Of a stretch of DNA of 46,536 nucleotides, positions 29,478 to 46,517 are shown in pieces. The notes beneath the pieces are model-generated. The model had not been told where the DNA came from. It worked only from the letters and a program-made list of their open reading frames with translations, and searched no databases. Position 1 is the stretch's first letter; each line of letters opens with the position of its first letter. Made by a program: the position numbers and the translations under genes. Source of the stretch: Anaerolineales bacterium (GTDB lineage Bacteria > Chloroflexota > Anaerolineae > Anaerolineales > Villigracilaceae); contig JAFGSI010000075.1 in assembly GCA_016934715.1 (NCBI GenBank), positions 1 through 46,536 of the forward strand, read 5' to 3'.

Positions 29478-32057
29478 TCACATCACCCGGACCGTCGAAT
29501 TGCCCCCCCCCTTTTCGACCTCGATCCGGTTCGGGAAGGCATCCTTCAACTCGTCCATGTGGGTAATGACCAGGATCTTGGCAAAGTCGCTGCGCACGGC
29601 ATTGATGGCCTCGATCAAACGCTGGCGGCCCTGGGTATCCTGCGAGCCGAAGCCCTCGTCAATGACCAGGGTCTGCAGGCGGGCCCCCTTACGACCGGCC
29701 AGGACCCGGGCAAGCGCCAGGCGGATGGCAAAGTTGACCCGAAAGGCCTCCCCGCCCGAGAACATCTCATAGTCGCGCGCCCCGGCCCCATCGCTGATCT
29801 GGATGTCGAGGGTCTCGCGCAGGTCGTCACGCTTCCTATCCCTATACTCAGCCTGGGTGACGAAACGCACCGACATCGTCCCGTCGGAGAGCCGGTCGAG
29901 CAGTTCGTTGGCCCGGGCCTCGATCTCGGGCAGGGCCTGTTCGATCAGGAGTGCCGGGACGCCATCCCGTCCGAAGGCCCGCTCGAGCGACTTGTGGCGG
30001 CCGACGGCCAGGGCCAGTTCCTGGCGGTCGGTTTCCAGGCGGGTCCTGCGGGACCGCAGGTCGTCGAGCACGCTGACCTTCTGGCGGGCCGCGCCGACTT
30101 CCTGATCGAGACGATTCTCCTGTTCCTGCAGGTCGAACAGGGCCCGCTCGGAAGACTCCAGCTCGGGCGCCGCCAGGTCGGCGGCCGCCAGGGAGGCAGC
30201 TGCCTCGGCATGCTCGGCCTGCTGACGATCGATCTCCACCTTCAGGTCCCTGATCTGCGACTGCAGGTTAGCAATCTCATCCTCGAGGGGTTTGAGCGCC
30301 GCCCGGGCCGATTCGAGCCGCCGGAACTGCTCCTCGGCACTGCGGGCTTCCCGCTCGGACTGCCGGGCCGCCTCGTGGGCCGCGATGTTGTAACCGATGG
30401 CGGCCAGTTCTTTGTCGACTTTGGCCAGCTGCTTGCGCGCTTCGGCGGCATATTTTTCCTTTTCGAGCAACTTCTCGATCCCGGCCAGGCGTTTGGCGCC
30501 GACTGTCTGCCATTCCTTCTCCAGCCGTTGGAGCGCCTCCAGCCGTTCCGTCAGCTGGGAGACGACCGCCGACTGGGCCAGGCGCACATTTTCGGCATCG
30601 CTGAGCGCCCCACTCTGGGCCTCAAGCTCCTTGAGCTTCCCGACCAGCATCTCAACCGCAGACTTGTTGGCCCGCCAGCGGTCTCCCATCTCCTTGCCCT
30701 CGGCCTCGATCTGGGTGATGGTGCTCTGGCGGTGCTCGGGGCTGAGCGTCTGCCCGCACAAAGGACAGACGGCACCGTTGGCCTCCTTCAAGCGGTCGAG
30801 ACGGGTCTTGACCGTGTCCATCTCGGTTTTCAGGCGCTCGTTCTCCAGGCGCAGTTCGGTCTGGCGATCGCGCCCGGCCTGGAGCTGGACTTCCAGGTCG
30901 AGGCGCCGGGCGAGGGTCACCTCGGCCTCGGCCAGGGAAGCCCTGGCCGTCTCCAGTTCGGCCAGCAGACCGTTGACCGCAGCCTGCTGGCTGCTGACCG
31001 CCTCCGCATCCGAGCGCAGCCGGCGCCCCTCCTCTTCCAGGCGGGCCCGCTCGACAGCGATCTCCGCCAGCAGGGGCAGGCGCTCCTGCTCGTGCTCGCG
31101 GAACTGCCCGGCGGTCGCCTCCCAGCGTTCGAGTTCTGCCCGGGCGGCCTGCCAGCCCTGGTAGGCTGCCTCGACCTCGGCAGCATGCGCCTGCAGGTCA
31201 GCGTATGAGTCCCGCTCGGCCTCCCGCCCGGCGAGGCGCTGGCGCAAACCGGCGAGGCCGGCGTTCGAGCGGTCCAGCCCATCGGTCAGCTTGCGCACCA
31301 GTTCGCGCTGCGCTTCCAGGACGGCGTGCACCTGCTTGACACTTGCCAGGGCGGCCTCCTGCGCCTTGCGGCTGTCGCGCAAACCCGCCAGCTGCTGCTC
31401 CAACGCCTCCAGGTGGGACTTGCGCTGCGGCTCCTCGGCCAGCTCAGCCTCGATCTCTCCCAGGCGCCCGTCGATACCATCCAGGTCGCGCTCAATGGCT
31501 TTGCGACGCCCGGCTGTGCGCTCCCGGTAGACCTCCCAGGCTTCCAGGCCGAGGATATTGCCCAGAATGTCCTTGCGCCGGCCAGGTGACTGCTGGGTGA
31601 ACTGGTCGGCCTTGCCCTGCAGGAAGAAGGCCGCGTTGACGAAGGTTTCGTAGTCCAGGCGCAGGACCGCCTCAATGCGGGCCTGGGTCTCGCGCAGGGT
31701 CCGTTCGCTGAGCGGACGCCACTCGGCTGGCTGATCGTTGCGCGCTGTTTGCTGGATCTGAAATTCAAGCTGGGTGGTCCTGCCGCGCGGCAGGGTCCGG
31801 ATCACACGGTAGAGATTGTCTTCGTACTGGAAGGTGAAGGCCACCTCGGCGGATTTGACATCCGGATGGGTATTGATCAGCGAATCGTCGCGTTTGCGGG
31901 CCTGGCCGAAGAGCGCCCAGGTGATGGCATCGAGCAGCGACGACTTGCCGGCCCCGTTTGGGCCTGAGATGCAGGCCAGGTCGAAGGAACGGAAATCGAC
32001 CTCGGCCGAGTCGCGGTAGGAAAGGAAGCCGGAGAGTTTCAGGTGGATCGGGATCAC
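29478..32057 (-). CDS. sbcC: DNA double-strand break repair ATPase SbcC (Rad50 family)
   Basis: 859 aa SMC-like ATPase. Walker A is GPNGAGKSS (residues 32-40), two long coiled coils flank a zinc hook CPLCGQ (C431 and C434), and the C-terminal head has the signature SGGEAFRVNFAIRLAL and Walker B LVIDEGFGSQD. It pairs with SbcD to process hairpins and DNA ends. The start is GTG at 32057 (MIPIHLKLSGFLSYRDS). A TAAAAT box lies 6 nt upstream, so translation is probably leaderless. sbcD is 19 kb away on the opposite strand. Confidence 0.95.
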   Translation of the reverse strand: MIPIHLKLSGFLSYRDSAEVDFRSFDLACISGPNGAGKSSLLDAITWALFGQARKRDDSLINTHPDVKSAEVAFTFQYEDNLYRVIRTLPRGRTTQLEFQIQQTARNDQPAEWRPLSERTLRETQARIEAVLRLDYETFVNAAFFLQGKADQFTQQSPGRRKDILGNILGLEAWEVYRERTAGRRKAIERDLDGIDGRLGEIEAELAEEPQRKSHLEALEQQLAGLRDSRKAQEAALASVKQVHAVLEAQRELVRKLTDGLDRSNAGLAGLRQRLAGREAERDSYADLQAHAAEVEAAYQGWQAARAELERWEATAGQFREHEQERLPLLAEIAVERARLEEEGRRLRSDAEAVSSQQAAVNGLLAELETARASLAEAEVTLARRLDLEVQLQAGRDRQTELRLENERLKTEMDTVKTRLDRLKEANGAVCPLCGQTLSPEHRQSTITQIEAEGKEMGDRWRANKSAVEMLVGKLKELEAQSGALSDAENVRLAQSAVVSQLTERLEALQRLEKEWQTVGAKRLAGIEKLLEKEKYAAEARKQLAKVDKELAAIGYNIAAHEAARQSEREARSAEEQFRRLESARAALKPLEDEIANLQSQIRDLKVEIDRQQAEHAEAAASLAAADLAAPELESSERALFDLQEQENRLDQEVGAARQKVSVLDDLRSRRTRLETDRQELALAVGRHKSLERAFGRDGVPALLIEQALPEIEARANELLDRLSDGTMSVRFVTQAEYRDRKRDDLRETLDIQISDGAGARDYEMFSGGEAFRVNFAIRLALARVLAGRKGARLQTLVIDEGFGSQDTQGRQRLIEAINAVRSDFAKILVITHMDELKDAFPNRIEVEKGGGNSTVRVM

Positions 32058-32796: not shown

Positions 32797-33873
32797 ATGC
32801 CTGAACTGCTTCCCTTCCTTAAAGACCTGCTCAGCCTGCCCGGCCTGTCCTCCTATGAGGAACCGGTCGCCAAGGCCATCCGCACCCACTGGGCGCCGCT
32901 GGTGGACGAGGTCGGCCTCAGCCGTCTCGGCTCCCTGCACGGCCTGCGCAAAGGGACGGCCAAGTCGCCGCGCCCGGCGCTGATGATCTGCACCCACATG
33001 GACGCCATCGGCCTGATGGTGACCGGCATCACCTCCGGCGGCTTCCTGCACATCACCCAGGTCGGCGGGGTTGATCCCCGGGTTCTGCCCGGCCAACTGG
33101 TCGAGGTCCACGCCAGCGGCGAAGGCGGGACCAAGATTCTGCCAGGCGTGGTCGCCCAGCCGCCAGGCCGGCTGCTGCCGCCCGAGCTCGACGACGGTCC
33201 GGTCCCGCTCGAGCACCTGCTGGTCGACACCGGCCTGCCCGAAAGACAGGTCAAGGCCGTGGTGCGGGTCGGCGATCTAGTTTCGTTCGCCAGCCGGCCG
33301 GTCGAACTGGCCGGCGAGACGATCGCCGGACACACCCTCGACAACCGGGCCTCGGTCGCCGCCCTGACCGTCTGTCTGGAGGAACTCCAGGGGCGCTCCC
33401 ACGCCTGGGACCTATGGGCGGTTGCATCGGTCCAGGAGGAAGTCGGTCTGATCGGAGCCCAGACCTCGGCCTACGCCCTGCAGCCGTCCCTGGCTCTGGT
33501 GGTCGACGTCACCTTCGCCAAGGGCCCCGGGGCCAACGACTGGGAGACCTTCCCGCTCGGTAAGGGTCCAACCCTGGTGATGGGTCCCAACATCCATCCA
33601 GCAGCCCACAAGGCGCTCAAGGACCTGGCTGACAGACTAGAGATCCCCTACGCCATCGAATACGCCCCGCGCCACACTGGCACCGATGCCCACGCCACCC
33701 AGGTCGCCGCCGATGGCATCCCCACCGCCCTGTTGTGCATCCCGCTGCGCTACATGCACACGCCTGTCGAAGTGGTGGCACTTAAGGACATCCAGCGGGT
33801 TGGCCGGCTGATGGCCGAATTCACCGCCGGGTTGGCACCGGACTTCATGGATACGATCACCTGGGATAATTGA
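32797..33873 (+). CDS. M42 family metallopeptidase (first of three)
   Basis: 358 aa TET-type aminopeptidase. The dinuclear metal and catalytic residues are present: H in CTHMDAIGL, D in AGHTLDNRAS, the EE pair in VQEEVGLIGA, D in VVDVTFA and H in YMHTPVE. Family knowledge: M42 enzymes form dodecameric tetrahedra that trim peptides released by proteases. It has a longer segment before the second metal motif than the other two copies. The next gene starts 2 nt after its stop, so the two are co-transcribed. Specificity cannot be inferred. Confidence 0.92.
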   Translation: MPELLPFLKDLLSLPGLSSYEEPVAKAIRTHWAPLVDEVGLSRLGSLHGLRKGTAKSPRPALMICTHMDAIGLMVTGITSGGFLHITQVGGVDPRVLPGQLVEVHASGEGGTKILPGVVAQPPGRLLPPELDDGPVPLEHLLVDTGLPERQVKAVVRVGDLVSFASRPVELAGETIAGHTLDNRASVAALTVCLEELQGRSHAWDLWAVASVQEEVGLIGAQTSAYALQPSLALVVDVTFAKGPGANDWETFPLGKGPTLVMGPNIHPAAHKALKDLADRLEIPYAIEYAPRHTGTDAHATQVAADGIPTALLCIPLRYMHTPVEVVALKDIQRVGRLMAEFTAGLAPDFMDTITWDN

Positions 33874-33875
33874 AC

Positions 33876-34931
33876 ATGCCCGCGATTGGAACCCCGCAAC
33901 TCAAACTGCTCGAGAAGCTGTGCAACGCCGTGGCCGTCTCCGGCGACGAGGGCGAAGTGCGCCAGATCGTCCTGGAAGAGATCAAGGGCCACGTAGAGGA
34001 TATTAAAGTGGATGCCCTGGGAAACGTCCTGGTAACGAAGAAGGGCACCACCGCCAAACGCCTGCGGGTGATGGTCTCGGCCCATATGGACGAGGTCGGT
34101 TTCATGCTGGTCGCCGACGACGGCGAGGGCATCTACCGCTTCGAACCTGTCGGCGGGCTGGACATCCGCCAGCTGGTCGGCAAGCCGATCTGGGTAGGCA
34201 GGGAACATACTCCCGGCGTGATCGGGGCGCGCCCGATCCACCTGACCACCGCGGAGGAGCGCAAGCGCAAGATCCCGCTCGACAACCTGCGCATCGACCT
34301 GGGCCCGACCGGCAAGGCCAAACTCGGCGACCGGGCGACCTTTGCCACTCAATTCCAGCGCAACGGGCCGGTGCTGATCGCCAAGGCCCTCGACAACCGC
34401 TTCGGCGTGGTCACGCTGATCGAACTGCTCAAGCATGCGCCCCCGAACATCGACCTGCTGGCCGCCTTCACCGTCCAGGAGGAGGTCGGGCTGCGCGGTG
34501 CCAAAGTGGCGGCCCATGCCCTCAACCCCGACCTGGCGATCGCAGTCGACTCGACCCCGGCCTTTGACCTGCCCGCCTGGGATGACGAGCCGAGCTCCTT
34601 CTACAACACTCGCCTTGGCCTCGGCCCGGCGATCTACATCGCCGACGGGGCCACGCTCTCCGATCCGCGCCTGGTCCGTCACCTGACCGCGACCGGCGAC
34701 GCCGGGAAGATCCCCTACCAGTTCCGCCAACCGGGTGGCGGCGGGACCGACGCCGGGGCAATTCACAGGGCGCGGGCCGGCATCCCATCGGTCTCGGTCT
34801 CCGTGCCACACCGCTACGCCCACACCGCAGCCTTGATCGCGCGGCTCGACGACTGGAAGAACACCCTGACCCTGCTGCATGCCGCCCTGGCCCACCTGAC
34901 CCCCTCCGTGCTGGCCGGGGAACGGGCCTGA
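33876..34931 (+). CDS. M42 family metallopeptidase (second of three)
   Basis: 351 aa from the ATG at 33876, and an upstream in-frame TTG is rejected. Active-site residues: H in AHMDEVGFM, D in AKALDNRFGV, EE in VQEEVGLRGA, D in AVDSTPAFD, H in HRYAHTAAL. It is clearly paralogous to its neighbours but diverged, so the three copies are an old family rather than a recent duplication. Members of different M42 types can co-assemble into mixed complexes in archaea. Whether these do is unknown. Expected to be cytosolic, in peptide turnover. Confidence 0.92.
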   Translation: MPAIGTPQLKLLEKLCNAVAVSGDEGEVRQIVLEEIKGHVEDIKVDALGNVLVTKKGTTAKRLRVMVSAHMDEVGFMLVADDGEGIYRFEPVGGLDIRQLVGKPIWVGREHTPGVIGARPIHLTTAEERKRKIPLDNLRIDLGPTGKAKLGDRATFATQFQRNGPVLIAKALDNRFGVVTLIELLKHAPPNIDLLAAFTVQEEVGLRGAKVAAHALNPDLAIAVDSTPAFDLPAWDDEPSSFYNTRLGLGPAIYIADGATLSDPRLVRHLTATGDAGKIPYQFRQPGGGGTDAGAIHRARAGIPSVSVSVPHRYAHTAALIARLDDWKNTLTLLHAALAHLTPSVLAGERA

Positions 34932-35053
34932 GAACCTAGACAAGGAATGGATTGATCGCCCTGGTCGGGTCGGGTGCGTACTTGCCCGGCATGGACTCCG
35001 TCGACCGCCACCTGCTGGCGAACTGCTGTGCGGACGGCCACCAGCCGAATGTG

Positions 35054-35079
35054 GCCTGCCTGCCGACTGCCGCTGACAA
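35054..35079 (-). repeat. GTCAGC-type repeat between M42 genes
   Basis: On the minus strand it reads GTCAGCGGCAGTCGGCAGG, similar to the motifs at 39191-39210, 46225-46251 and 19628-19641. It lies in the 205-bp gap between the second and third M42 genes. Confidence 0.35.
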
Positions 35080-35136
35080 TGAAGGCGAGAGCCTTACCCT
35101 TCCAGTGTAGCACTCATCTTCTTCAAGGAGATTTCC

Positions 35137-36126
35137 ATGAAACGACTGATCCAGACACTGACCGAGACCTTCTCCCCCTCTGGCTACGAGGGCGCCATTC
35201 GCGATGTGATCCGCAAAGAAGTCAAGCCGCTGGCCGCTGAACTGCGCGTCGATGCTCTGGGCAACCTGATCGCCCGCAAGGGCACCAAGGGCGGCAAGCG
35301 CATCATGATCGCCGGCCACATGGACGAGATCGGCCTGATCGTCAACCACGTGGACGAGAATGGCTTCCTGCGCTTCACCACCATCGGCGGCATCCGTCCA
35401 CACACCCTGACGGGCGGGCGAGTCCGCTTCATGGACGGCACCCCGGGCGTGATCGGCACCGACTTCAGCAAAGATGCCGGCAGACTCCCTGCAGTCGACC
35501 AGTGCTTCATCGACATCGGGGCGACCAGCGCCGGGGACTGCCCGATCAAGGTCGGCGACGTGTGCGCCTTCGAGCGCCCTTTCCTTGACCTGGGCAAGCG
35601 CCTGGTGGCCAAGTCAATGGATGACCGCATTGGCTGCGCGGTGATGATCGAGACCATGCGGGCCCTGAAATCCAGCCCCCACGAGGTCTATTTCGTCTTC
35701 AGCACTCAGGAGGAGGTCGGGCTGCGCGGCGCCCAGACGGCGACCTTCGGCCTGGACCCCGAGATCGGCATCTCGATCGACGTCACCCTCACCGGAGACA
35801 CCCCCAAGGCACGTCAGATGGCCGTCAGCCTGGGCCGGGGACCGGCAATCAAGATCCGTGACGGCGGTATGCTGGCCGATCCACGCGTCGTCGATTGGAT
35901 GATCCGCAGCGCCGAAAAGGCCCGCCTGCCCTACCAGCGTGAGGTCCTGGAAGGCGGGACGACCGACGCCAAGGCGATGCAGGTGAGTCGCGCCGGGGTC
36001 CCCGCCGGCTGCATCTCGATCCCCAGCCGCTACGTCCACTCCCCGTCGGAGATGGTCGACCACGACGATGTGCAGAACGCCGTCAAGCTGCTGACGACCA
36101 TGTTGAGCAAGCCGGTCGAACTCTAA
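35137..36126 (+). CDS. M42 family metallopeptidase (third of three)
   Basis: 329 aa, the shortest copy. Active-site residues: H in GHMDEIGLI, D in AKSMDDRIGC, EE in TQEEVGLRGA, D in SIDVTLTGD, H in SRYVHSPSEM. AAGGAGA lies 7 nt before the ATG. The 205-bp gap upstream holds repeat-like sequence and probably its own weak promoter, so it may be transcribed separately from the first two copies. A strong terminator follows at 36143. Broad peptide trimming is expected from the family. Confidence 0.92.
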   Translation: MKRLIQTLTETFSPSGYEGAIRDVIRKEVKPLAAELRVDALGNLIARKGTKGGKRIMIAGHMDEIGLIVNHVDENGFLRFTTIGGIRPHTLTGGRVRFMDGTPGVIGTDFSKDAGRLPAVDQCFIDIGATSAGDCPIKVGDVCAFERPFLDLGKRLVAKSMDDRIGCAVMIETMRALKSSPHEVYFVFSTQEEVGLRGAQTATFGLDPEIGISIDVTLTGDTPKARQMAVSLGRGPAIKIRDGGMLADPRVVDWMIRSAEKARLPYQREVLEGGTTDAKAMQVSRAGVPAGCISIPSRYVHSPSEMVDHDDVQNAVKLLTTMLSKPVEL

Positions 36127-40531: not shown

Positions 40532-40680
40532 GGATTCACGGAACAGCAAGGATGACAAATCGAATTGCAAACGACGAGGTCCATTCTTGTGGCTGAAAGC
40601 CCGTCCTTGTGCGGCTCCTCCCTCGGCCGAAAGCCGGTGGCGTCCGCCGCCTGGTCTTCCAGGCAATGAGGAAAGAGACC

Positions 40681-41358
40681 ATGAACGAGCGCATCCTGAT
40701 CATCGAGGACGATCCCGCCATCCTGAAAGTTCTGCAACGCGGACTGGCCTACGAGGGCTACACGGTCGACATCGCCACCGACGGACGCATGGGTCTTAAC
40801 CTGGCGCGCGATCGGCGCCCGGACCTGGTCATCCTGGACTGGATGCTCCCCGGTTTGGACGGGCTGGAAGTCTGCCGCCGGCTGCGCACCGGGGGCGGTC
40901 TGCCGATCCTGATGCTGACCGCCAAGGACACCGTTCAAGACCGCGTCCAGGGGCTTGACGCCGGGGCCGATGATTACCTGGTCAAGCCGTTCAATCTCGA
41001 CGAGTTGACCGCCCGGATGCGGGCCCTGTTGCGCCGCACCCAAACTGAGCGTGTCCAGGTCTACCAGTTCGGCGACCTGACCATGGACAGCTCCTCCCGC
41101 CAGGTGACCCGCAACGGCCGCCAGATCCAGTTGACCGCCAAGGAATACGAACTGCTCGAACTATTCCTGCGCCACCCGCGCCAGGTGCTCACCCGCGAGG
41201 TCATCTTCGATCGCGTCTGGGGGTACGACTTCGGCGGCGAGAGCAATGTGCTCGAAGTCTACATCCGCTACCTGCGTCAGAAACTCGAAGCCGAAGGAGA
41301 GCCGCGTCTGATCCACACCGTGCGCGGGGTGGGCTACGTCCTGCGAGAGAACCCCTAG
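40681..41358 (+). CDS. OmpR-family response regulator
   Basis: 225 aa. The receiver domain has D10/D11, phosphoacceptor D53 in [12 protein letters not shown], and switch residues in LMLTAKD and LVKPF. The winged helix (about 130-222) has [34 protein letters not shown] and ends [28 protein letters not shown] precedes the ATG at 40681. The in-frame upstream stretch is not coding. Its stop is immediately followed by the kinase ATG, so the pair is translated together. The layout resembles MprA/MprB-type envelope-responsive systems but the signal is unknown. Confidence 0.95.
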
Positions 41359-42765
41359 ATGTCGCTGCGTGTCCGTCTGACGATCCTCTACTCGGCGCTG
41401 ACCGGGGGAATCCTGCTGTTGTTCGGCGTGCTGATCTATGTGCTGGTCAGCATGTTGTTGATTAACCAGGTGGAAGACAACCTGCTCCAGACCTTCAACG
41501 ACATCATCGAGAACACCCGGGTTGACTCGGTCGGCGACCTGAACGTGGTCACCCTGCCACAGCTCGATCTGACCGCCAACGTTTACGTCCAGATCTGGGA
41601 TGCCAACGGACGGCTGCACAGTTCCTCGGCCGGGATCAGTCGCTTGCAGCAGCCGCTCGACCCACAGGGCTTCCAGTCGCGGACCCCGCTCTATCGGGAC
41701 AGTTACATCCAGGCGGCCCACCTGCGGGTTCTGACCGTCCCACTGGTGGTCGGCGCGGAACGGAGGTCAGCCGGTGTCATCCAGCTGGCCGCCAACCTGA
41801 ACGTCGTCGACGCCGCCCGGACGGCACTGCTCCAGATCATCGCTGTGATCGCCATCGTCTCCATGACTGTGGCGGCGGTGGCATCCTGGTTCACCATCGG
41901 GCGAGCCCTGGCCCCGATAAGTGCCGTGACCGAGATGGCTCTCAACATCGCCCGCGCCGACGATCTGTCCAACCGCATCCCCTACCAGGGCACTGCGGAC
42001 GACGAGATCGGCCAGTTGATCACCGCCTTCAACGACACCCTCGAACGGCTCGAGCGCCTGTTCACCTCCCAGCAGCGCTTCCTGGCCGATGTCAGCCACG
42101 AACTGCGCACCCCGCTGACGGTCGTCAAGGGCAACGTCGACCTGCTGCGCAAGATGGGCTGCGCCGACGAGGAATCGCTCTCCAGTATCGAGGACGAAGC
42201 TGACCGCCTGAGCCGCCTGGTCGGTGACCTGCTGCTGGAGGCGCAGGCCGAATCGGGCAAGCTGCCGCTCAAATTCACCGATGTCGAACTTGACACCCTG
42301 CTGCTCGACGTCTACAGGGAGATGCGCATCCTGGCCCGTGACCGGGTCAAGTTGAAGGTCAGCCAGATCGACCAGGTTCCGGTCCTGGGCGACCCCGACC
42401 GGCTCAAACAGGTGTTGATCAACCTGGTCTCGAACGCCATCAAATATACTCCACCCGGCGGTGAGATCATCCTCAGCCTGGGCAAGGTCGGAGAGCAGGC
42501 CCGCCTGATCGTGCGCGACACCGGCCCGGGCATCCCGGCCGAGGACATGCCGCACATCTTCGAGCGCTTCTACCGTGCTGAAAAATCCCGCACCCGGTCC
42601 AAGGCTGGTGGGTTCGGGCTGGGACTGTCAATCGCTTACTGGATCATTACCAATCACGGGGGACAGATCGAAGTCGCTTCGCAGGAGGGCGAAGGCACAA
42701 CCTTCTGCATCTGGCTGCCTTTGTTGCGCAGTCAGCGATCGGAAAGCAGCATTCCGTCAGAGTAA
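41359..42765 (+). CDS. Membrane sensor histidine kinase
   Basis: 468 aa. TM1 at about 8-34, an extracytoplasmic sensor loop (35-156), TM2 about 157-180, HAMP (181-235), HisKA with H247 in FLADVSHELRTPLT, then HATPase_c with NLVSNAIKYTPPGG (N box), VRDTGPGIPAEDMPHIFERFYR (G1 and F boxes) and GGFGLGLSIAYWI (G2). It phosphorylates the response regulator encoded directly upstream. Its start directly follows the upstream stop. It is convergent with the lytic transglycosylase gene 12 nt away. Confidence 0.95.
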   Translation: MSLRVRLTILYSALTGGILLLFGVLIYVLVSMLLINQVEDNLLQTFNDIIENTRVDSVGDLNVVTLPQLDLTANVYVQIWDANGRLHSSSAGISRLQQPLDPQGFQSRTPLYRDSYIQAAHLRVLTVPLVVGAERRSAGVIQLAANLNVVDAARTALLQIIAVIAIVSMTVAAVASWFTIGRALAPISAVTEMALNIARADDLSNRIPYQGTADDEIGQLITAFNDTLERLERLFTSQQRFLADVSHELRTPLTVVKGNVDLLRKMGCADEESLSSIEDEADRLSRLVGDLLLEAQAESGKLPLKFTDVELDTLLLDVYREMRILARDRVKLKVSQIDQVPVLGDPDRLKQVLINLVSNAIKYTPPGGEIILSLGKVGEQARLIVRDTGPGIPAEDMPHIFERFYRAEKSRTRSKAGGFGLGLSIAYWIITNHGGQIEVASQEGEGTTFCIWLPLLRSQRSESSIPSE

Positions 42766-42777
42766 CAAGAGAGAGTT

Positions 42778-43485
42778 TCAGGGCAGGCCCAGACGCGCGC
42801 GCGCCTGGACGCACAGGCTGGTTCCTCCAGCAGAGAGCCATTCCTGCAGCCGGTCGCTCGATTCCGCCCCGCTGGCAGCCTCGGCATAGATGCCATTGCC
42901 CCAGTAGGTGTAACGCTGTGTCTCGGAGGCCCAGCTGGACTCCCAGCGCCCGATCACCCCGATCCCGCCGTTGTACCCGGCGAAGGCCAGGCGCGGGTCC
43001 CCGCCGGCAGTCGCCAGCGAACGGCGCAAATAATCCAACCCGCGCAATGCATTGGTGGCAGGGTCGTAGGGATTCTCCCCGGCGGCGAAATGGTAGGGCA
43101 TCACCTGGAACAACCCTGCCGCCCCGGCGCGCGAACGGGCCTGCGGATCACCGCAGGATTCGATCTGCATCACCGTGGCGGCCAGGTTCGGATCCAGCCC
43201 GGCCGCGGCCGCCCAGACAACAATGCGGTCAGCCCAGAATTGGATCTCGGGAGTGAAGACCGGCGACAGTCCGCCCTCCCCCGGGACGATGGCAGGTGTC
43301 GCCTCCACAGCAGCTGCCAGGTCGCCCGGAGCGGTCGTGCCGGACAGGTCGAAGGTCAGGACGGCCATCAGCAGCCCCACCAGCAGGACAGCCAGCGGGG
43401 GCAGCAGGAAGCCAGACAGACAACCGCCTCCGGTGGAGGAGGCGGCTGCCCGAGCGGAAGGAGGGACGGAGCGGGGCGAAGACAT
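42778..43485 (-). CDS. Membrane-anchored SLT-type lytic transglycosylase
   Basis: 235 aa. An N-terminal helix (about 24-46) anchors it. The SLT lysozyme-like domain spans about 80-205: VMQIESCGDPQARSRAGAAGLFQVMPYHF has the catalytic Glu of the family (ES motif), then NPYDPATNALRGLDYLRR and AFAGYNGGIGVI. Such enzymes cleave peptidoglycan glycan strands and are used for wall remodelling or by conjugation/secretion systems. It begins 15 nt after the 43501 gene, with TGGAG before the ATG, and is probably co-transcribed under the LexA-type promoter. Confidence 0.9.
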   Translation of the reverse strand: MSSPRSVPPSARAAASSTGGGCLSGFLLPPLAVLLVGLLMAVLTFDLSGTTAPGDLAAAVEATPAIVPGEGGLSPVFTPEIQFWADRIVVWAAAAGLDPNLAATVMQIESCGDPQARSRAGAAGLFQVMPYHFAAGENPYDPATNALRGLDYLRRSLATAGGDPRLAFAGYNGGIGVIGRWESSWASETQRYTYWGNGIYAEAASGAESSDRLQEWLSAGGTSLCVQARARLGLP

Positions 43486-43500
43486 GGCTCCAGCAACAGG

Positions 43501-44238
43501 CTAGGAATGGCGCGGGTTGTCGACGTACTCAGCCTCGCGGGCAGAGCGGGCATTCATCGACAGGTTATGATAGGTCGGCTCGGGGCGGGCCGCATAGGAG
43601 GGCTCCGGGCGGGCCTTGGGCGCCGGGCGGAAGGCGTTGTTGACAGCCGGACGGCGACTGGGATTCAACTGGCTGGCCGGACGCAGGGCTGGCGTGGTGG
43701 CGTTGCGCGGGCGCGACTGGGAGGTCTCCAACTGGCTGAAAAGGCGCTCCCCGGCGATCGAGAAGGTGCCAATGATCAGGACCCGGATCAGCCAGACCAT
43801 GACTGCCACGAAGACCGGCACGACCTTGATCAGGGTCTCATGGGAAATCACAGCGGAGTTGACGGTCGCATTGTTGACAATGGCTGCCTTGACCCCCCAC
43901 CAGGTCAGCAGGGCGTTCATCCCCGCGGCCAGCAGCCAGGCTCCGAAGAGGTACCAGACCTCGGCGGGCTCGTCGCGGCCCTTTTCAGGAGTGAACAGGC
44001 GGGCAATGCCGGCGAAGTCGATCCCGCAGAAGGCGATCGCCAGGATGGCGGCCCAGCGGATGCCAGCAAACCTGAGGTCGCCGAGTACATCGGTAAGTGC
44101 GAACTCGGTCGTGCTGTAGTTGAAGATCTCGAAGGCCAGCAGGGCACCGATAATGATCAGCCCCCAGGCCAGCCCGCGGCGCAGGCTGAAGCCCTTGAAC
44201 ATGCTGCTTACCCGATTCTTACGAAAGAGTGTGTTCAT
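43501..44238 (-). CDS. Multi-pass membrane protein with Arg/Pro-rich tail, unknown function
   Basis: 245 aa. Four membrane helices (about 22-42, 58-78, 90-115 and 133-160), then a positively charged, Pro/Arg/Ala-rich cytosolic tail of about 80 residues with RPEPSYAARPEPTYHN-type repeats. I do not recognise the family. The promoter is TTGACA-17-TATACT (44314-44286), with a GAAC-N4-GTTC palindrome at 44263-44274, and AAAGGAGG before the ATG. With the SLT gene behind it, it could belong to a conjugation-like or wall-stress module. Both readings are inference. Confidence 0.78.
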   Translation of the reverse strand: MNTLFRKNRVSSMFKGFSLRRGLAWGLIIIGALLAFEIFNYSTTEFALTDVLGDLRFAGIRWAAILAIAFCGIDFAGIARLFTPEKGRDEPAEVWYLFGAWLLAAGMNALLTWWGVKAAIVNNATVNSAVISHETLIKVVPVFVAVMVWLIRVLIIGTFSIAGERLFSQLETSQSRPRNATTPALRPASQLNPSRRPAVNNAFRPAPKARPEPSYAARPEPTYHNLSMNARSAREAEYVDNPRHS

Positions 44239-44261
44239 AACGACCTCCTTTTCTATCGTTC

Positions 44262-44275
44262 AGAACAAACGTTCT
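44262..44275. promoter_or_regulatory. LexA-type (Cheo box) operator
   Basis: AGAACAAACGTTCT is a near-perfect palindrome with the GAAC-N4-GTTC core of Gram-positive-type LexA sites. It lies just downstream of the minus-strand -10, a blocking position for the 44238 gene. Confidence 0.6.
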
Positions 44276-44285
44276 ATCTGCCAAC

Positions 44286-44314
44286 AGTATAGAACATTTG
44301 TGCAGGTTTGTCAA
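44286..44314 (-). promoter_or_regulatory. Promoter of the 44238 gene, with a second LexA-like half site
   Basis: Minus strand TTGACA (44314-44309), 17-bp spacer, TATACT (44291-44286). GAACATTTGTGC at 44292-44303 inside the spacer matches the operator core with one mismatch. Confidence 0.8.
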
Positions 44315-44337
44315 GTACCCAATTCCTGGAATATAAT
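44308..44337 (+). promoter_or_regulatory. ligA promoter
   Basis: TTGTCA (44308-44313), 18-bp spacer, TATAAT (44332-44337). Its -35 shares bases with the -35 of the divergent promoter. Leader of about 32 nt. Confidence 0.75.
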
Positions 44338-44339
44338 GA

Positions 44340-46517
<2,178 letters not shown>

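Follow-up and report, generated by a model that had tools for sequence, protein, structure and literature searches.

The locus described here raises the question of why sequences of the form bound by LexA should stand ahead of a membrane protein and a cell wall enzyme, and what such a pair would do for a cell with damaged DNA. It lies in a 46,536-nt stretch of the genome of an Anaerolineales bacterium (Chloroflexota; GenBank contig JAFGSI010000075.1), the whole of which we call the window, and consists of a gene for a four-helix membrane protein, named M, and a gene on the same strand for an SLT enzyme, named S. Knowledge of SOS responses comes mainly from a small number of phyla, and a search of open-licence literature by title found none on LexA control in Chloroflexota or Anaerolineae. 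The locus offers an apparent SOS target in Anaerolineae that is readable from sequence, with a conserved operator, and this target is an envelope pair, not a repair gene.

The promoter assigned to M and S is on the minus strand, with TTGACA (44314–44309) as its −35 and TATACT (44291–44286) as its −10 element, separated by a spacer of 17 bp. Two LexA-type operators accompany it: operator 1, GAACAAACGTTC (44263–44274), is an exact match to GAACN4GTTC that begins ∼11 bp past the −10 element, and operator 2, GAACATTTGTGC (44292–44303), has one mismatch and lies within the spacer, 29 bp from operator 1, start to start. Both boxes and the promoter are as they had been claimed in a preliminary description of this DNA, which also had the promoter of the divergent gene ligA sharing the −35 region; that overlap, too, is real. 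The ligA gene (NAD-dependent DNA ligase; 44376–46517, plus strand) has a −35-like TTGTCA (44308–44313) that overlaps the −35 of M, and a −10-like TATAAT (44332–44337) after a spacer of 18. We nonetheless rejected co-regulation of ligA, because both boxes lie upstream of its −35, with neither overlapping its −35 or −10, and because ligA is the divergent neighbor of M in only 8 of 80 named loci, placing it outside the conserved module. By eye, a Shine-Dalgarno-like stretch, GAAAAGGAGGT (44243–44253, minus strand), precedes M.

Whether the boxes are what they appear to be is best judged from the genes at the center of the SOS response. The LexA box known from Gram-positive bacteria is GAACN4GTTC. 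The genome encodes one clear LexA, on another contig, where neither M nor S adjoins lexA, and its lexA promoter reads TTGACA, an exact box (GAACGGATGTTC), and TATGAT. Among 30 lexA loci from relatives, 28 have an exact box and 2 a box with one mismatch, in every case within the promoter spacer, while a reversed control pattern is matched with up to one mismatch in 4/30. At recA a one-mismatch site, GAACATCTGTGC, sits between TTGACG and TATACT; among the 29 usable recA loci of relatives (a 30th was too short), 25 have the box with up to one mismatch, 21 of them in the spacer, as against 6/29 for the control. The box in the M spacer, GAACATTTGTGC, is the recA form, and the form GAACNNNNGTGC fills the recA promoter spacer of relatives. 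The box at M and S is very probably a LexA operator, because the same motif occupies the lexA and recA promoters. The preliminary description had allowed that the host LexA might recognize a different motif and had proposed a search for the box ahead of recA and lexA; the box was found at both, in this genome and in its relatives, which favors the original claim. Most relatives' lexA promoters (L159–L188) also have a conserved half-box, AGCACAAATG, soon after the −10 element, resembling the M-promoter box GCACAAATGTTC.

Box counts alone say little in the window, where 13 sites with up to one mismatch compare with 16.1 expected, which is at chance level; in the whole genome the exact motif occurs 71 times and its reversed control 37 times, an excess of about twofold. 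The boxes are above chance because they are conserved upstream of M in relatives, not because of the window count. A survey of exact sites covered 50 of the 71 in the genome, with 47 stretches read around the 48 that belong to neither lexA nor M–S. By a strict test, among these 50 only lexA and M–S had a promoter-like pair together with a gene start, and just five of the other 48 sites fell outside long open frames.

Upstream of M the box is nearly constant. Of 88 main M matches 70 were read and 18 left aside; at 68 of these 70 related loci a box with up to one mismatch lies within 250 bp upstream of M (50 exact, 18 with one mismatch, 2 with none), as compared to 4–7 of 70 when nine control palindromes or reversed patterns were sought at the same loci; control stretches at the gene start itself and after it gave 8 and 5. 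The two misses are L047 and L069, the former owing to a wrong choice of start, with an exact box actually 61 bp upstream. Among named loci the box is present in 78/80 (63 exact, 15 with one mismatch, 2 with none, one of the latter, L233, having masked bases upstream), with eight controls at 1–10/80; the 54 named loci absent from the earlier set comprise 39 exact, 13 with one mismatch, and 2 with none. A further set of 24 loci, two of which were left out for want of a usable M start (L089 and L098), has the box at all 22 readable M loci, 18 of them from outside the order; these 18 of 18 include 12 exact boxes, and eight of them come from a family whose M is ∼38–41% identical. A promoter-like pair occurs at 66/70 M loci and overlaps a box at 64/70. 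Two or more boxes occur at 21/70 loci, and box spacing in the named set is mostly 25–34 bp, about three helix turns. LexA control of the M–S pair, the central claim of the preliminary description, is thus strongly supported, as far as sequence can speak to it: 68/70 and 78/80 loci are boxed, with the same box at lexA and recA. LexA would be expected to bind these sites, and the pair to be induced by damage.

Closest to the M locus among named sequences (75% identity) are metagenome genomes labelled Anaerolineales or Chloroflexi. Of 61 related genomes 56 carry M, mostly in two copies; a class-wide set of 199 genomes has it in 31, and a phylum sample of 301 in 26, every one of which belongs to the same class, Anaerolineae. 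S follows M in 63/80 named and 42/70 related loci, with M occurring without S in 28/70. The M–S operon looks vertically kept, since M is present in 56/61 relatives and S adjoins it in 63/80 named loci. On a tree of M loci, those with S and those without cluster (7 changes, compared with a mean of 22 when shuffled), which points to an S-linked and a solitary form of M. The solitary second copy has its own LexA-type box in many genomes (L035–L068), in unrelated surroundings; genes seen by eye near solitary M include radC, a lipoate ligase-like gene, and epimerase-like genes. Conversely, S occurs without M in three families, where five loci have an exact box 112 bp upstream (one locus), a one-mismatch box 55 bp upstream (one), or none near (three). 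Since M is often without S, and S sometimes without M, the partnership is not obligatory. L363 and L365 belong to a family in which no M turned up; there the orthologue of S has its own LexA-type box, 55 or 112 bp upstream.

Downstream of S in the window, and convergent with it, is a histidine kinase gene (41359–42765, plus strand), a conserved neighbor that is probably not co-regulated, paired with a gene for an OmpR-type response regulator (40609–41358, plus strand; the longest frame, whose true start is probably further in). A convergent kinase/regulator pair beside M–S recurs in several families, being seen in G000, G001, G005, G010, G012, G016, and G057.

The preliminary description had also suggested a conjugation-like module, and this part of it did not hold as the main reading. 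A scan for the VirB4-type ATPase family PF03135 found nothing in the genome, which is 97.8% complete; this family is one marker of transfer ATPases and in a control set matches only Caulobacter (1/14). The proposed search for the pair beside conjugation genes, made by eye in 13 M neighborhoods (L100, in which no M was identified, was dropped), recognized no transfer gene among ordinary housekeeping neighbors, although a fold resemblance to SpdB2/DUF2637, taken up below, keeps the idea of DNA transfer alive. The arrangement recalls VirB1 and VirB6 of type IV secretion, in that an SLT enzyme adjoins a polytopic membrane protein; the difference is that the M–S genome lacks the VirB4 family and that M–S lies outside transfer genes in the neighborhoods read.

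M (43501–44238, minus strand) has 245 aa, with four predicted membrane helices and a basic, proline-rich tail of net charge +5, in keeping with the four-helix protein with basic tail of the preliminary description. It has no match in Pfam, NCBIfam, or PHROGs and none in a PDB sequence search; it is a membrane family that no library names, and we place it in no known family. Across 32 diverse M sequences 17 columns are invariant, including E37, N40, D74, N108, W113, W114, P141, and R152, and conservation is very strong inside the membrane helices, charged and polar residues included; such invariant residues in helices argue for a specific partner or site. The tails of 70 homologues are also basic, their net charge running from 1 to 11 with a median of +5; they are 16% proline, and 59 of the 70 have the motif EP[TSG]Y[HNQ]. 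The basic N-terminus of M suggests that both ends may be inside the cell. A model of the M core (pLDDT 85, pTM 0.73) has four long helices; a Foldseek search of PDB structures gave nothing at E ≤ 0.001, and the best VIA-align Z scores against PDB, 7.3 and 6.9 for two M models, are within the stated noise for helical bundles.

S (42778–43485, minus strand) has 235 aa and starts 15 bp after the end of M. It had been named as the partner gene even though it lies outside the segment then described, and the assignment stands: by its PF01464 match (E 9.2e-19) and its motifs it is an SLT lytic transglycosylase. The catalytic motifs QIESCG, GLFQVMP, and AGYNGG are kept in at least 90% of 41 sequences, with catalytic E109 followed by S110. 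Several sequences with stop codons were excluded from one of the alignments (A4). There is a single N-terminal hydrophobic anchor, and two cysteines, C111 and C225, are conserved.

As the best explanation for these features we tentatively favor, at somewhat less than an even chance, that M–S is a LexA-repressed SOS operon acting as a checkpoint on division or the wall, in the manner of YneA or ChiZ. In the undamaged cell LexA would occupy both operators, that in the promoter spacer and that shortly past the −10 element, and so block transcription; upon DNA damage, RecA-triggered cleavage of LexA would lift the repression. M would insert in the cytoplasmic membrane with its four helices, its basic tail probably cytoplasmic, and S would be anchored beside it with the wall-cutting domain outside. 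M might then contact a conserved partner in the membrane, possibly the machinery for division or wall synthesis, and S would trim peptidoglycan nearby, holding back septation or wall growth until repair. The boxes, their position in the promoter, their counterparts at lexA and recA, their conservation, the protein families, and the intact SLT motifs are read from sequence; we infer the function of the pair, along with its topology, its partnership, and its division or wall target. The damage-induced wall module of the preliminary description is plausible.

The checkpoint is preferred because in other phyla division is inhibited by SOS-induced membrane proteins whose wall domain lies outside the cell. 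YneA is described as SOS-induced and as blocking septal wall synthesis through FtsW (PMC13396833), and ChiZ as a cell wall hydrolase that is induced by damage and restrains division (PMC3989709). Both ChiZ (Rv2719c), of Mycobacterium, and YneA, of Bacillus subtilis, are reported to be membrane proteins that respond to damage and hold a wall-directed domain on the outer side. S likewise carries a single membrane anchor and a wall enzyme domain predicted to lie outside the cell, but that domain is SLT, not LysM, and S is paired with a separate four-helix protein. Among the features of SOS division inhibitors of the YneA/ChiZ/SosA type, SOS control and a membrane anchor are supported by sequence; family libraries gave no sequence relation between M and such inhibitors. 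Strict conservation of M, together with its frequent solitary copy, suits a regulatory contact better than a lysis pore. Against the checkpoint, M has four helices, as opposed to the single helix of YneA; a homologue of M beside a phage holin favors lysis, and the SpdB2/DUF2637-like predicted fold favors a DNA-linked role. Were the checkpoint true, it would be a new solution for halting division after DNA damage; lysis or DNA passage, if true, would reveal a novel route by which the damage response of these bacteria extends to the wall.

Controlled lysis, an unlikely contender, would make M holin-like and S its wall enzyme, a tamed phage cassette with which SOS bursts part of the cells and releases DNA and vesicles. 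Explosive lysis through a cryptic prophage endolysin is described for Pseudomonas aeruginosa (PMC4834629). Like phage holin–endolysin cassettes, the locus sets a small membrane protein beside a wall enzyme, and S matches the phage endolysin profile phrog_669 (E 1.6e-20). Searching phage protein records with M gave nothing better than E 2, and IMG/VR yielded one viral M relative among 65 pattern matches, a second scan with that phage M returning to the same contig (IMGVR_UViG_3300027917_002087; L299:4927–6146). This relative, a tail-less protein of 166 aa and 52% identity, directly follows a Holin_LLH gene (PF09682, E 2.2e-12; phrog_608, E 1.6e-12) and is followed by an HNH endonuclease gene, with a portal gene downstream. 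Yet this phage already has a holin, its 32.4-kb record has no SLT match, and there is no box near its M. The tandem boxes at 21/70 loci would suit a gene needing tight silence. Holins are usually far less conserved than M, which keeps charged and polar residues in its helices, and this counts against lysis. M of the window matches no holin family in Pfam or PHROGs, and the single weak holin match, Phage_holin_3_1 at E 0.063, comes from one of 32 diverse homologues other than the window protein. An S with its own anchor, again different from those cassettes, would presumably need no holin, and the presence in a genome of two copies of M, of which one usually lacks S, is hard to square with lysis. 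Rather less likely is that M is a chromosomal analogue of SpdB2, an oligomer whose basic tail would bind DNA at septa, with S opening the wall there and allowing DNA to pass or be held during repair in filamentous cells. In Foldseek searches of viral models, DUF2637-type actinophage proteins took top ranks with probability 1.0 for both M models, among them the DUF2637 protein of Gordonia phage Jace and phiC31 gp25 (TM 0.55 by query, with the pLDDT 85 model); E-values of DUF2637-type matches were 6.4e-4 with the weaker model and 4.8e-3 to 0.13 with the better one, whose best value is thus only 4.8e-3, and four-helix bundles match easily.

SpdB2 of pSVH1 is described as an oligomeric membrane protein with non-specific DNA binding (PMC4170104), and DUF2637 genes adjoin traA or traB on the Streptomyces plasmids pWTY27 and pSN22. 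M shares with these plasmid and actinophage proteins four predicted helices and a polar disordered tail, and a search of viral models with its predicted fold places such proteins first, at modest E-values; the M tails are basic (median +5 over 70). It differs in showing no significant sequence relation, in being chromosomal and LexA-boxed, and in having no DNA pump beside it: no DNA-pump gene was seen next to M, and the genome has no VirB4 family. An hhalign profile comparison of M with 13 DUF2637-type plasmid and phage proteins was not significant (P 0.18 and 0.25), nor was one with phiC31 gp25 alone, the reference set being loose (of six proteins scanned one passes PF10935, and gp25 does not); none of 32 diverse M homologues matches PF10935 at E up to 10. 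Sequence kinship of M with DUF2637/SpdB2 was rejected on these grounds. The fuller version, in which M would be a new SOS effector family, an SpdB2-like septal protein of filamentous Anaerolineae, with S opening the septal wall and DNA held or passed between neighboring cells for repair, we consider highly improbable; if true, a multicellular bacterial lineage would possess its own device for sharing DNA in response to damage. Dormancy by membrane leak, which we judge very unlikely, would make M by itself an SOS-induced channel, one that slows the cell by lowering its membrane potential, with S a side component. TisB, a small toxin under LexA control, acts in this way. The occurrence of M alone behind a box in 28/70 loci and its conserved charged and polar residues within helices would fit, but M, being large, highly conserved, chromosomal, and vertically inherited, is unlike toxins, and the adjacency of S would be left unexplained. 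Least credible of all, in our estimation, is that the operator matches are accidental and M–S an ordinary wall-maintenance operon: the window count alone is at chance level, but boxes at 68/70 and 78/80 loci far exceed the controls (4–7/70 and 1–10/80), and the promoter layout is the same as at lexA and recA.

A distant genome has mutS immediately after S and in the same orientation (L110:3234–6704), possibly co-transcribed under the LexA box. Elsewhere in the window are a gene for an SbcC-type AAA ATPase with a Rad50 zinc hook (29478–32057) and three M42-family aminopeptidase genes close together on the plus strand (32797–36126).
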